IMG/VR virus record: IMGVR_UViG_3300044981_000091
Location: 1 to 25,652 of that record
Strand: one strand, 5' to 3'
DNA length: 25,652 nt
Origin: a virus
Part shown: piece by piece, positions 1,996 to 18,797 of the stretch
Position numbering within the stretch: position 1 is the stretch's first letter
Layout: every line of letters starts with the position of its first letter
Notes under the pieces: model-generated
Database searches by the model: none
Seen by the model: only the letters and a program-made list of their open reading frames with translations
What the model was told of the DNA's origin: nothing
Made by a program: the position numbers and the translations under genes

Positions 1996-2222
1996 CGTAT
2001 GAAGAAATGGCTGCGTTGGCAACGGGGATTGGGGTATTGCTGAATGCGGTGGTCACCGTGTTTAGCTTGATACAGAGCATGCGCAATGGTCGAAAGATTG
2101 AAGATGTGCACCTTGCGACAAATTCGATGAAGGATGCACTCGTGGCATCTACCGAGAAGGAGAGCTACGCTCGCGGGGTCAAGGCTGGGGAGAGCGGATC
2201 ATTGAACCTGCATGATCCCTAG
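1992..2222 (+). CDS. Single-helix phage membrane protein (76 aa)
   Basis: One hydrophobic segment lies at about residues 7-27, followed by a polar helix containing VHLATNSMKDALVASTEKES. Small phage proteins with an N-terminal helix and a V-H-x-x-x-N-S-x-x-x tail are common in lysis regions, and I recognise the style but not a named family. It is the last plus-strand gene before the convergent replication operon. Its TAG stop is read from the same CTAG palindrome that gives the TAG of the minus-strand gene ending at 2219. Confidence 0.75.
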   Translation: MTYEEMAALATGIGVLLNAVVTVFSLIQSMRNGRKIEDVHLATNSMKDALVASTEKESYARGVKAGESGSLNLHDP

Positions 2223-3484
2223 ACAAGGTTCCCATCGACATCGATATCCGGGACCTGGGCCTTGTAACACTTCAAGCCAGTGCGCTTATCAATAGCCACT
2301 GGCTTGATCATTTCTGCGGACTCCATAACCTTGATTACGCGTTCGATGGAGTGGAGGGGGATGCGTTCTTTGGCGAAGGCGATTATCTTGCGCTCTGGTA
2401 CTGGTCCGCGAACGCCGGAGGTGAGCACAAAGTGATATATCTCATCCATGGCTCTAGCATCAGCATTACCGGCTCCTGCTTTGAAAATGTCAGGCATAGT
2501 CTCTTCTGCTTCGAGGAGCCATCCCATTGCTCTGTTAAAATCATCCCTAGTGAGCAGAAGTGTGTCTGATCGGTCGATTGCGGAGACCATTGACAGCTTA
2601 TAGAGATGGACCCGTCTTCGAGTAGCGTAGTGGATGAGCTTGGGATGGGTGGGGACTGGTTCTTCTCCAAGGGCTCTCCAGCCGTTGACTGCGTTTCGAT
2701 ATTCCTCGGTGACCTCGAAGCGACCGACCAGACCAGAGATGCTGTTGAGGTCGTGAACAAGATCAGGGTTAAGACTAGCGTCCACTTCAGCAAAGTCATC
2801 GCCGATGGTCCTTTCGTCTGAGAAGATCATGATTGTTCGGGAACAGAACCCTTGCTCCCATGCGGACTCTGGGAGGTACTTGAGGAGTGTAGAGGGGGTG
2901 GCTCCGCAGATGAGGTTGAGTTGCGGGAGCGGGATTTTGATATTGAGATCGTTGCCCCGCCGGGTTTGCCCGTAGGGCGTCGTGTCGTAGAATGCTGACA
3001 TGGTGCCGATGGCTTCTTCGTCGTAGGCTTTCATGAATGCTGAGAGTTCGTCGCCGGTGATGTAGAGGGAGTTGTATTCTAGGGTATCCATTTCCCCCCG
3101 GTCATTGATCACGATCTTCCGCTTGGCTTTGGTGAGTGCATCGATCATCGAGGACGCAGACATCGAAGTCGGTGCAGCATGGGGCTCTGGGGTCTCTAGG
3201 TAGTATTTCTTCGCAGCGCGGATGCTCCGGGTCTTGCCCACCCCCGGATGCGCCACGAGGAAGCAGTAGACATTCGGATGTAGCTTCTCGCTACCCGAGA
3301 CTACGTAGACCTTCTGCTCTACGGCAGCGGCGATAACGGAGATCGCGGCCCACTTTCGAAATATGTAGGGGGCCTCTAGAACCGCCGTCTGCTCAACGAA
3401 TGATTCGATCCATGATCCCAACCTCCGGCCTGCGTGTCCGTTCGTCGTGGCCTTTGTAGTCTTTGAGCCCGTCGACGTTGTCAT
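2219..3484 (-). CDS. DUF3987-like P-loop ATPase, probable replication helicase/primase-type protein
   Basis: This 421-residue protein resembles the DUF3987/YfjI group of phage and plasmid replication ATPases. It has a Walker A at residues 78-85 (AHPGVGKT), an acidic Walker B-like LYITGDEL with D145 and E146, and a C-terminal region that looks winged-helix-like (PVPERKIIAFAKERIPLHSI). No primase zinc or TOPRIM motif is visible. The start at 3484 lies 92 bp inside the polymerase gene but has a strong AAGGGGGAG ribosome site, so the long overlap looks real. It is the last gene of the minus-strand operon. The role in replication is inferred from neighbours and family. Confidence 0.8.
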   Translation of the reverse strand: MTTSTGSKTTKATTNGHAGRRLGSWIESFVEQTAVLEAPYIFRKWAAISVIAAAVEQKVYVVSGSEKLHPNVYCFLVAHPGVGKTRSIRAAKKYYLETPEPHAAPTSMSASSMIDALTKAKRKIVINDRGEMDTLEYNSLYITGDELSAFMKAYDEEAIGTMSAFYDTTPYGQTRRGNDLNIKIPLPQLNLICGATPSTLLKYLPESAWEQGFCSRTIMIFSDERTIGDDFAEVDASLNPDLVHDLNSISGLVGRFEVTEEYRNAVNGWRALGEEPVPTHPKLIHYATRRRVHLYKLSMVSAIDRSDTLLLTRDDFNRAMGWLLEAEETMPDIFKAGAGNADARAMDEIYHFVLTSGVRGPVPERKIIAFAKERIPLHSIERVIKVMESAEMIKPVAIDKRTGLKCYKAQVPDIDVDGNLV

Positions 3485-4892
3485 TATTCGACTCCCCCTT
3501 GTTCCAACCTACTTTGCAATCGTAAGGAATGGCAAGGGTTCGGCCGTTGGCGAGGGGGATTTCCTCCACGAGCATGGAGCGGAGCAGGGGAATGATTTCA
3601 TCTTCATATTCTTCTGGATACATCCATGTGAGAGCATCGTGATCGTGCATCATTATGTAGACGGTGATGGAATTGGCCTTGGCCCAGCGCCAGATGCGGA
3701 GCATGGCTCTGTTAACTATGTCTGCCAAGGACCCTTGTGGATCATAAGCGACAGCTTCCCTCCAGACAGCAGGATCGTTGCGTCTACCGAAGAACCAGCG
3801 CTTGCGCCCTGTAAGCGATGTAAGGTGTCCAGATCGTTTAAGCTGATTATCAACCCAACCATGCCATCTGATGTGACTAGGGAATGCTCTGAAATATTTC
3901 GGTTGGAAGTCTCTAACAACTGTTTCAGGGAGCTTGGCTTGCTGGGCGAGGGTGCTGGCTTGTCCTCCGTAGTTGCTTCCGTGGCCGAGCTTTTTGCACA
4001 TGAAGCGGTAAGTGTAATGTCGATAGTATGGATGCTCGGCGATATCTTTATCTCGCTTGAGGTCACCGGTCCACGGAAGATTAGGCCAACAAATTCTTGC
4101 AACAGCTGTGTGAATGTCTCCTGACTCGACAGCATCTAAGTATCTCCCGTCGTTGAAGAGGTTGTGTTCGATTGCTCCGACGCAGTAGCTTTCACCGGAC
4201 TTCGCGTCGAATTTAGCAAATTTATAGCCTGAGTCAGCAACGAATACGCTTCTGAGAGATTCTTCGATGTTTTGCAGATTGCCTCCTGTTCCAAACTCCG
4301 AATAGCTAGAACTAAACCGTCCCGTGCTCGTACCAGCAATATTGTAAGAGGTTCGCATTCGTCCATCTGGGTCCACTCCTGTTTTCAGCATCTTGATCTT
4401 CGATGCGAGGTCTGCAATTGCGTTCAGGTGCTCGACGATCGGCTTCGCTACAAGGAACACCCCAAGCTTCTCTCGGGCATCACGGTCGGTGGTCGGTCGC
4501 CCGCGCTTCAGGATCGGTGGGATGCCGAGGTGTGTGTAGAAGAGCTTCTGGAGGTCGGGCGGGGATCGTGGGTTGAAGCGAGGCATCCCGACCCCGTCGA
4601 GGACGATTTGCTCTAGCTGGCCTTCAAGCCGGTCGATCTTGTCGAAGTAGTCGTCGAGGACTTGGGCTTTTCGATTCGAATCGACCAGCACGCCCCGCAG
4701 TCGCATTTCGAGAGCAGGACCTTGCAGCCCACGGCTAAAGGTATAGGTGCTAGATGTCTGAGCATCGAGTTGCGGATGTATTGCATCCAAAACCTCTTTT
4801 GTGATAACGACATCGAGTCCATTATAGACTTGGTCATTTTCCCAAGCATTTAGCTCTCCCGGCACAGTTAGATCAGTTCTAATGATCCTCAC
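3393..4892 (-). CDS. Family A DNA polymerase, polymerase domain
   Basis: This 499-residue protein carries the polymerase half of a Pol I-type enzyme. Visible motifs are TGRFSSS...NLQNIEE (about 190-212), motif A with D229 and E234 (FDAKSGES), motif B R296-x3-K300-x3-H304-GSNYG, and motif C MHDHDAL with D417. Motif C has His where most members have Glu, and motif B has His where E. coli Pol I has F762. The N-terminus holds Y23-x3-D27 (YNGLD), which matches the exonuclease III motif normally found in the 3'-5' exonuclease domain; the rest of that domain is on the upstream gene. The start is GTG, overlapping the upstream TGA as GTGA, with AGGGA upstream. Confidence 0.93.
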   Translation of the reverse strand: MRIIRTDLTVPGELNAWENDQVYNGLDVVITKEVLDAIHPQLDAQTSSTYTFSRGLQGPALEMRLRGVLVDSNRKAQVLDDYFDKIDRLEGQLEQIVLDGVGMPRFNPRSPPDLQKLFYTHLGIPPILKRGRPTTDRDAREKLGVFLVAKPIVEHLNAIADLASKIKMLKTGVDPDGRMRTSYNIAGTSTGRFSSSYSEFGTGGNLQNIEESLRSVFVADSGYKFAKFDAKSGESYCVGAIEHNLFNDGRYLDAVESGDIHTAVARICWPNLPWTGDLKRDKDIAEHPYYRHYTYRFMCKKLGHGSNYGGQASTLAQQAKLPETVVRDFQPKYFRAFPSHIRWHGWVDNQLKRSGHLTSLTGRKRWFFGRRNDPAVWREAVAYDPQGSLADIVNRAMLRIWRWAKANSITVYIMMHDHDALTWMYPEEYEDEIIPLLRSMLVEEIPLANGRTLAIPYDCKVGWNKGESNNDNVDGLKDYKGHDERTRRPEVGIMDRIIR

Positions 4893-5992
4893 TTATCCCT
4901 GCCTATCGTTTGCTCTTTGTGTTCATTCTTCCAAGGCCCATGATCGGTATAAATCGATCCCAAATACCCCAATCCCTTCAACGCTTCGGGTTGTAGCGCA
5001 TGATGCAGGAGCATTGTGTCATGAGTTGCTCCCATTGTGCGCAGGCCATAGGCTCGCCAAAGGAATGCAAGATCGTACAATCCATTCTGGAACACTTTGC
5101 GTACGGTTGAATCCTCAAGCACCGAACGTATAAGCTCCCAACACTGTCGTTCAGCTTCCGCAGTAGGCCAATAGCTTCCGTTCTTTGATCGCGAGTCATG
5201 GATCGGAATAACAAGAGCAAGGTCTGATCTGGGTGCAAATCCGATGCACGTAACCTGCGATCCGCTTGTCTCAATGTCGACAGAAAGGATTTCACAGCCG
5301 TTGGTGATGTAGGTCGATATGAACGTTTGGATATCTTGTAGACTGGGCTCGATCCAGATTTCACATTTCGGGCGACGGACATCGGGGAAGTCCTTCTCGC
5401 GGTTGATCTTGGAGAGGTCTGCTACTGTGGTGGGTCGGAGTTCGTATTGTCGGAGTACCGCAGCAGGGTGATAAGCACATAGAAGCTTATAGCCGCTAAT
5501 GGTATGAGTAGAGACGCAAGTAGTTCCACGAAGTTTAGTGATACCAGTTCGACCCGCCAGAGCCCATAGAGCGCTATTGCCCAAAGCAACAATGAGGTTA
5601 GGGTCATGGCTAAGGATTTCTTCACCAAGCCGGTCGAGTTCATAAGCGTACTCCTTTCTCACATACCCCGACTTCACCAGCGCAGGGTAGTACGGGATGC
5701 CCTCGACCTTTGGTCCGCAGAAGTGTTTCAAATCATTGCGGGGTGGATGTTGCTGGAAGACGTTCGTCCGGTAGACCTCCGGATGCATCTGCCAAACGGC
5801 CTCGGTGCAGTTGGGGTCCTGGGTGGTCCAGAACTTCGCGATGAGGGATCGGTCTTCGGCGGTGAGGACGATGACGCGAGCATCGTGGAGCATCCGCAGA
5901 AGCTCCACGCCCGAGGCCCCAACGAAGCCAGAGCCGATCTTGGCTTCGTTCTCACCCATGGCTTCGCCGCACAATACTACGGGCTTGGTCAC
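4889..5992 (-). CDS. Uracil-DNA glycosylase-like domain fused to a DnaQ-like 3'-5' exonuclease
   Basis: The 367-residue protein has two parts. Residues about 1-195 look like a family 4-type uracil-DNA glycosylase: GEAMGENEAK, FVGASGVELL, NVFQQHPPRND and CAYHPAAVL match its motif positions. Residues about 230-350 look like a polymerase proofreading domain: D239/E241 (VDIETSG), N303-x3-D307 (NGLYDLAFL) and D325 (THDTMLLHH). The final YxxxD exonuclease motif is missing here and appears at the start of the polymerase ORF. SPO1-like polymerases are known to join UDG and Pol A domains in one chain, so this phage seems to have a split version. The start is GTG with AGGGG upstream, overlapping the previous gene as GTGA. 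Confidence 0.87.
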   Translation of the reverse strand: MTKPVVLCGEAMGENEAKIGSGFVGASGVELLRMLHDARVIVLTAEDRSLIAKFWTTQDPNCTEAVWQMHPEVYRTNVFQQHPPRNDLKHFCGPKVEGIPYYPALVKSGYVRKEYAYELDRLGEEILSHDPNLIVALGNSALWALAGRTGITKLRGTTCVSTHTISGYKLLCAYHPAAVLRQYELRPTTVADLSKINREKDFPDVRRPKCEIWIEPSLQDIQTFISTYITNGCEILSVDIETSGSQVTCIGFAPRSDLALVIPIHDSRSKNGSYWPTAEAERQCWELIRSVLEDSTVRKVFQNGLYDLAFLWRAYGLRTMGATHDTMLLHHALQPEALKGLGYLGSIYTDHGPWKNEHKEQTIGRDK

Positions 5993-18566: not shown

Positions 18567-18797
18567 TTAGGCTTGAGTGATATTAGGATTGCTTTTGTAA
18601 TCGTGATCCCATTCATCCATAAGGAACTGAATGCAATCCCATTCCTTATCGGTGATAATACGCTCTGGTGCAGACCATAACCAGCGATCCTCGGTCCAAC
18701 CCTGTTCACGCAAGTAGTTCTCAGGGCCACTATCATCAATGGCATCGTCGAAATACTCTTGCATCTTGTTACGCAGTGCATCTGAGGCTGTGGGCAT
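18567..18797 (-). CDS. Hypothetical acidic protein (76 aa)
   Basis: The product starts MPTASDALRNKMQEYFDDAI and is acidic and Trp-rich (QGWTEDRWLW; WDCIQFLMDEWDHDY). The ATG follows CGAGGGAGC and lies about 30 bases below a strong -10 box. Small acidic early phage proteins are often inhibitors or DNA mimics, but nothing specific is seen here. An overlapping frame (18542-18781) is rejected. Confidence 0.75.
   Translation of the reverse strand: MPTASDALRNKMQEYFDDAIDDSGPENYLREQGWTEDRWLWSAPERIITDKEWDCIQFLMDEWDHDYKSNPNITQA

Follow-up and report, generated by a model that had tools for sequence, protein, structure and literature searches.

A family A DNA polymerase of tailed phages with its proofreading residues divided over two genes: a clade-wide break between Exo II and Exo III

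In the window analysed here, which is the entire IMG/VR record IMGVR_UViG_3300044981_000091 (25,652 bases), the residues of the 3'-5' proofreading site of a family A DNA polymerase are divided over two overlapping genes. Exo I and Exo II are encoded behind a UDG domain by the upstream gene and Exo III is encoded by the polymerase gene, and the break is found at the identical residue in all of the 80 loci that hold both halves. We consider it highly probable that the two products function together as one family A polymerase made of two chains, whose proofreading site is composite and which would have come out of an old genes-in-pieces event.

The upstream gene (4889-5992, minus strand) starts with GTG and encodes a protein of 367 amino acids (chain 1), in which a UDG superfamily domain (residues 4-188; 5429-5983, minus strand; PF03167, E 1.6e-11) is N-terminal to the first part of a Pol I-type 3'-5' exonuclease domain; this order is that of the UDG-fused phage polymerases of the SPO1-like and Mel-JY34-like types and is also seen in the related locus L003. 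The exonuclease match, DNA_pol_A_exo1 (residues 233-346; 4955-5296, minus strand; PF01612, E 6.4e-6), is incomplete and comprises Exo I (D239-I-E241; 5270-5278, minus strand) and Exo II (N303-x3-D307; 5072-5086, minus strand) without Exo III. The downstream gene (3393-4892, minus strand, also with a GTG start) encodes the 499 amino acids of chain 2, which is made up of the Exo III helix and the thumb, palm and fingers of a family A DNA polymerase. Exo III is represented by Y23-x3-D27 (YNGLD; 4812-4826, minus strand) and the DNA_pol_A domain covers residues 85-463 (3504-4640, minus strand; PF00476, E 2e-32), in which the motif A and motif C aspartates, D229 and D419, are invariant and align with the Klenow motifs. 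Both chains match the same PHROG profile, phrog_17 'DNA polymerase', chain 1 at positions 551-788 and chain 2 at positions 808-1236, and are therefore consecutive parts of one family. The DNA_pol_A domain and the three exonuclease motifs are all present but the motifs are spread over two chains, and instead of the usual layout with exonuclease and polymerase in one polypeptide two ORFs are found in each of the 80 loci. The assignment of Exo I and Exo II to the UDG-exonuclease ORF and of Exo III to the polymerase ORF, first made from the letters of the window, is borne out by Pfam, by PHROG and by residue invariance.

The two ORFs meet at positions 4889-4892, where the plus strand reads TCAC and the minus strand GTGA; this overlap holds the stop codon of chain 1 (TGA, 4891-4889) and the start codon of chain 2 (GTG, 4892-4890). 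Immediately 5' of the GTG, in the polymerase frame, stands a TAA (4895-4893). These positions and the residue numbers of the motifs had been given by the first-pass annotation, and every detail is right in the window sequence. At its other end the polymerase gene overlaps, by about 90 nt as called (3393-3484, minus strand), a DUF3987 or primase-like gene (2219-3484, minus strand; Pfam and PHROG). Chain 2 carries at the position aligned with Klenow F762 a histidine, H304, which is invariant in the clade, and single-chain relatives, Mel-JY34 among them, also have a histidine at the matching position. In Pol I enzymes position 762 affects nucleotide selection. Elsewhere in the window PHROG matches include endolysin, terminase, head-tail adaptor and replication genes, so that the window is part of a tailed phage. 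A stand-alone GIY-YIG nuclease ORF (PF01541; 20299-20703, plus strand) lies just upstream of the terminase region and is possibly a mobile nuclease.

With both proteins as queries IMG/VR yielded 88 loci, among which a few are the same contig. The junction counts are based on the 80 loci, the window counted, that hold both halves; some of these are near-identical (e.g. L058-L060), and 80 loci do not amount to 80 independent events. The halves abut (gap of at most 35 nt) in 35 of the 80, mostly with a 4-nt overlap of ATGA or GTGA or with an overlap of 1 nt, and in the other 45 they are separated by 106-1702 nt. The same break is present in a cultured isolate, Caulobacter phage Kuura, where two small genes lie between halves that are annotated as a hypothetical protein and a DNA polymerase; no mention of the split was found in the passages of PMC9959647 covered. 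No relatives were recovered when bacterial genome contigs were searched. The break is an ancient one, shared by the whole clade, and genes have inserted at it.

Homologues that keep this domain order in a single chain were found in Microcystis phage Mel-JY34, in three other phage records and in about 16 IMG/VR loci. Mel-JY34 (33% identity in the UDG-exonuclease part) and the loci L102-L117 have the domain order and the motifs of the window chains, but in one chain instead of two. The alignment of split with unsplit forms, a comparison that the first-pass annotation had suggested, recovered the same motifs and placed the break in the short stretch that runs from a conserved WK to Exo III. This stretch measures 14-17 residues in the single-chain enzymes versus about 34 over the two new termini in the split forms. 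In a FastTree phylogeny all 75 sequences with this break group together in a single clade (support 1.0), in which Kuura and the locus L101 are sister to the remaining split sequences, and the single-chain enzymes lie outside; this indicates one split, derived from the single-chain state. One-chain homologues exist and the derived forms are split at one point, as is the case for genes in pieces.

Other breaks were observed among the relatives. In L119 (718-3383) and L125 (5001-7666) the break lies between the UDG and the exonuclease domains and is accompanied by a decayed HNH-like stretch. A recurrent break in the palm, at about residues 544-563 of Mel-JY34, was seen in L121, L122, L127 and L005, with small genes between the pieces; L116 and L120 have in-frame stops at roughly that position. 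Vibrio phage ABTNL-3 is also split in the palm.

Where the halves are separated, the longest ORF fills at least 90% of the insert in 40 of the 45 loci and averages 90 codons, versus 35 in shuffles; the commonest layout is a small coupled ORF with a 4-nt overlap at both ends. By BLAST the insert ORFs fall into 33 groups. Four of these are nuclease-like, two being HNH, one endonuclease VII-like and one LAGLIDADG-like, the last comprising two members, of which one passes the Pfam threshold; the nuclease matches at the junction of the relatives are PF02945, PF13392, PF14528 and phrog_99. About eleven relatives have a homing endonuclease gene at the break, the window has none there, and the others have unrelated ORFs or none, most of the inserts being without recognisable nuclease identity. 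The inserts of the deepest clade members, Kuura and L101, are likewise without a recognised homing nuclease. In L101 an RNase H-like gene (phrog_531; 4157-4678) lies between the UDG-exonuclease and polymerase genes. In L016 (4353-4571) the 3' end of the UDG-exonuclease gene with its Shine-Dalgarno-like sequence is duplicated and flanks a small ORF, the TIKRDE-coding tail sequence occurring once on each side.

The proposal that this junction attracts insertions as no other boundary does was upheld only in part. The boundary between the UDG-exonuclease and polymerase genes is interrupted in 45 of 80 loci and the control boundary between the polymerase and DUF3987 genes in 0 of 79, but the DUF3310-UDG boundary also takes inserts (7 of 19), so that the junction acts as an ordinary permissive gene boundary of the operon.

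There are two readings of the cause of the split. A simple mutation, that is a stop and a new start, may have divided the gene, with small genes including nucleases invading later and the protein mechanism unchanged; we regard this as a genuine possibility, if on the less likely side. It accommodates the mostly unrecognisable insert groups, the inserts at the DUF3310-UDG boundary (two observations by which the nucleases may postdate the split) and the presence elsewhere in the window of a homologue of one junction insert, namely a Pam3_gp59-family small ORF (18567-18797, minus strand) related to the insert of L061, but it does less well with nuclease genes of four groups situated exactly at the junction and with the HNH-like remnant that a relative split elsewhere carries at its own break. 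Since the gene has been split repeatedly and nucleases occur at more than one break, the evidence favours homing endonucleases as the cause, for this break as a candidate.

As to the proteins, the first-pass annotation had put forward three outcomes: the two chains assemble, proofreading is lost, or a rare frameshift makes a fused chain. The exonuclease residues speak for the first of these. D239 and E241 are invariant in all 76 readable sequences, N303 and D307 in 79 of 79, and Y23 and D27 in 84 of 84; for the four residues of chain 1 the chance of such invariance is 1.5e-4 by column counts. With six residues invariant and the break shared by all the two-half loci, the layout of the motifs is not due to chance. 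The ratio of replaced to silent codons, given here as a raw ratio over pairs less than 30% divergent and not as a corrected dN/dS, is 0.56 at residues 23-40 of chain 2, which include Exo III, 0.69 in the exonuclease region of chain 1 and 0.49 in the palm and fingers, and it rises to 2.17 over the first 22 residues of chain 2. These ratios fit a constrained site on both sides of the break together with a looser, new N-terminus of chain 2.

If proofreading had been lost, the UDG-exonuclease chain would be a separate repair protein, and a UDG with a partial exonuclease could indeed carry out base-excision repair on its own while the polymerase operated without proofreading. An Exo III motif would, however, be useless on an exo-minus polymerase, and the low ratio at residues 23-40, set against that of the 22 residues before them, is not what such a loss would leave. 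The invariance of the six residues over both chains contradicts this outcome, which we consider very unlikely. Because every exonuclease residue is kept on the two pieces, chains 1 and 2 very probably join to make one working proofreading site.

Such a joining is compatible with structure prediction. In L007, a relative of the window, the two halves share one reading frame and are separated by other sequence worth 52 residues, and the locus was modelled as a single string in which stops were read as glycine and the intervening sequence served as a junk tether between the chains. AlphaFold2, with an alignment of 68 rows that held split-family sequences only, gave a model with pLDDT 85.7 and pTM 0.81 in which the linker is disordered. 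Its best PDB matches in Foldseek were Klenow fragments, over about 700 columns and with TM-scores by target of 0.73-0.75. A natural single-chain homologue, modelled from a shallower alignment of only 17 rows, gave pTM 0.61 and TM-scores by target of 0.66-0.69, and the split model is no worse against Klenow than this one, the difference in alignment depth being kept in mind. As the chains are loosely held together by the tether and Pol I folds are familiar to AlphaFold2, the model indicates that the split sequences are compatible with a Klenow-like assembly rather than that free chains bind. Together with the invariant residues and the precedents discussed below, it supports the proposal that the two chains assemble.

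The tail of the chain 1 gene carries in the window a Shine-Dalgarno-like sequence, AGGCAGGGA (4896-4904, minus strand), located 5' of the polymerase GTG and with a predicted anti-SD duplex of -6.9 kcal/mol. In the family the tail has the consensus TIKRD, mostly coded ACN-ATN-AAG-AGG-GAY, and 39 of 80 sequences use AGG as the codon of residue 365, versus a background of 10% of the Arg codons. Anti-SD pairing at -6 kcal/mol or better is found in 45% of the chain 1 tails and in 9% of control stretches. Given this enrichment, the next gene, whether polymerase or insert, seems to be started from a signal within the chain 1 gene.

A programmed frameshift or read-through at the junction, which would yield a fused chain, is harder still to sustain than a loss of proofreading. 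The frames of the window are one base apart at the GTGA overlap, and in L047 and L079 just a stop and one codon separate halves that share a frame; but another gene separates the halves in 45 of the 80 loci, their relative frame is not constant (39, 25 and 16 loci) and a slippery heptamer is found in only one of 34 tight junctions. Moreover a -1 slip in the window would bring the tRNA onto UAA, the polymerase frame is mostly closed a few codons upstream, and the downstream gene has a Shine-Dalgarno-like signal of its own. For the family as a whole the frameshift proposal is thus contradicted by the intervening genes, the variable frame and the rarity of slippery sites. The restoration of one chain by a self-splicing intron or a split intein appears scarcely credible: phage polymerase genes with introns are known, e.g. 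in SPO1-like phages, but the window overlap has no intervening bases and no space for an intron, a search with Rfam families, group I introns included, gave no match in the window or in 11 split loci, in which respect the locus differs from intron-interrupted polymerase genes, and chain 1 stops about 12 residues past the conserved WK without an intein-like extension. A sequencing error or assembly artefact at the junction, which the first-pass annotation had named as a way to refute its reading and which a metagenomic contig might suggest, is excluded for practical purposes, since the break recurs at the same place in 80 loci, which come from many samples, and also in the isolate Kuura with its intervening genes.

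We therefore return to the two-chain polymerase and propose the following course of events. The ancestor would have been a single-chain UDG-exonuclease-polymerase, of the type persisting in the relatives, and it would have been cut once, at a point between Exo II and Exo III, in the ancestor shared by the window clade and Kuura, most likely when a small mobile gene, for instance a homing endonuclease, inserted there. The halves would now be separate, translationally coupled genes, the end of the UDG-exonuclease gene holding a ribosome-binding-like sequence for the next gene. At the protein level, the Exo III helix at the N-terminus of the polymerase chain would join the exonuclease fold that the UDG-exonuclease chain provides only in part, and the pair would be a Klenow-like heterodimer with one composite proofreading site and the UDG as an extra domain. 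The two-chain state might further have been kept because it is useful. The polymerase chain without its exonuclease partner would be proofreading-deficient, so that the ratio of the chains, or the exchange of the UDG-exonuclease chain, would tune fidelity or strand displacement during infection, and proofreading would have become a detachable subunit of the family A polymerase, with the UDG on it; this reading seems to us rather unlikely.

Split phage enzymes are a kind already known. In Aeromonas phage Aeh1 the conserved enzyme NrdA is cut at a functionally critical region by the homing endonuclease gene mobE, and the two chains assemble into an active enzyme (PMC2988022). The enzyme is another one and its nuclease is still there, whereas the window clade is split throughout, often with no insert or an unrelated one. 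A two-chain replicative polymerase is found in the T4-like Aeromonas phages 25 and 44RR, where a seg-type nuclease or an untranslated insert lies between the pieces gp43A and gp43B; those of phage 25 co-purify, with polymerase activity (PMC2988022). This polymerase, however, belongs to family B and is without UDG. The OM43 phages MEP401 and MEP402 have a family A polymerase as two ORFs with a small ORF between them; there the first ORF has, besides the exonuclease domain, an N-terminal portion of the polymerase domain, and the break falls in the latter (PMC10580990).

In the literature covered, which takes in few subscription papers, we found no earlier account of a split between Exo II and Exo III fixed over a clade. 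What we did not find described, and what appears new, is a break inside the exonuclease active site that is clade-wide; no described polymerase was found in which the proofreading active site itself is divided over two proteins. Dozens of phages retain the arrangement, and none of the catalytic residues has been lost in them. If the proposed explanation holds, the locus would be a natural split polymerase, in which completion of the exonuclease site in trans lends itself to simple mixing tests, and also an example of how a broken essential gene may turn into a lasting point of entry for small and mobile genes.
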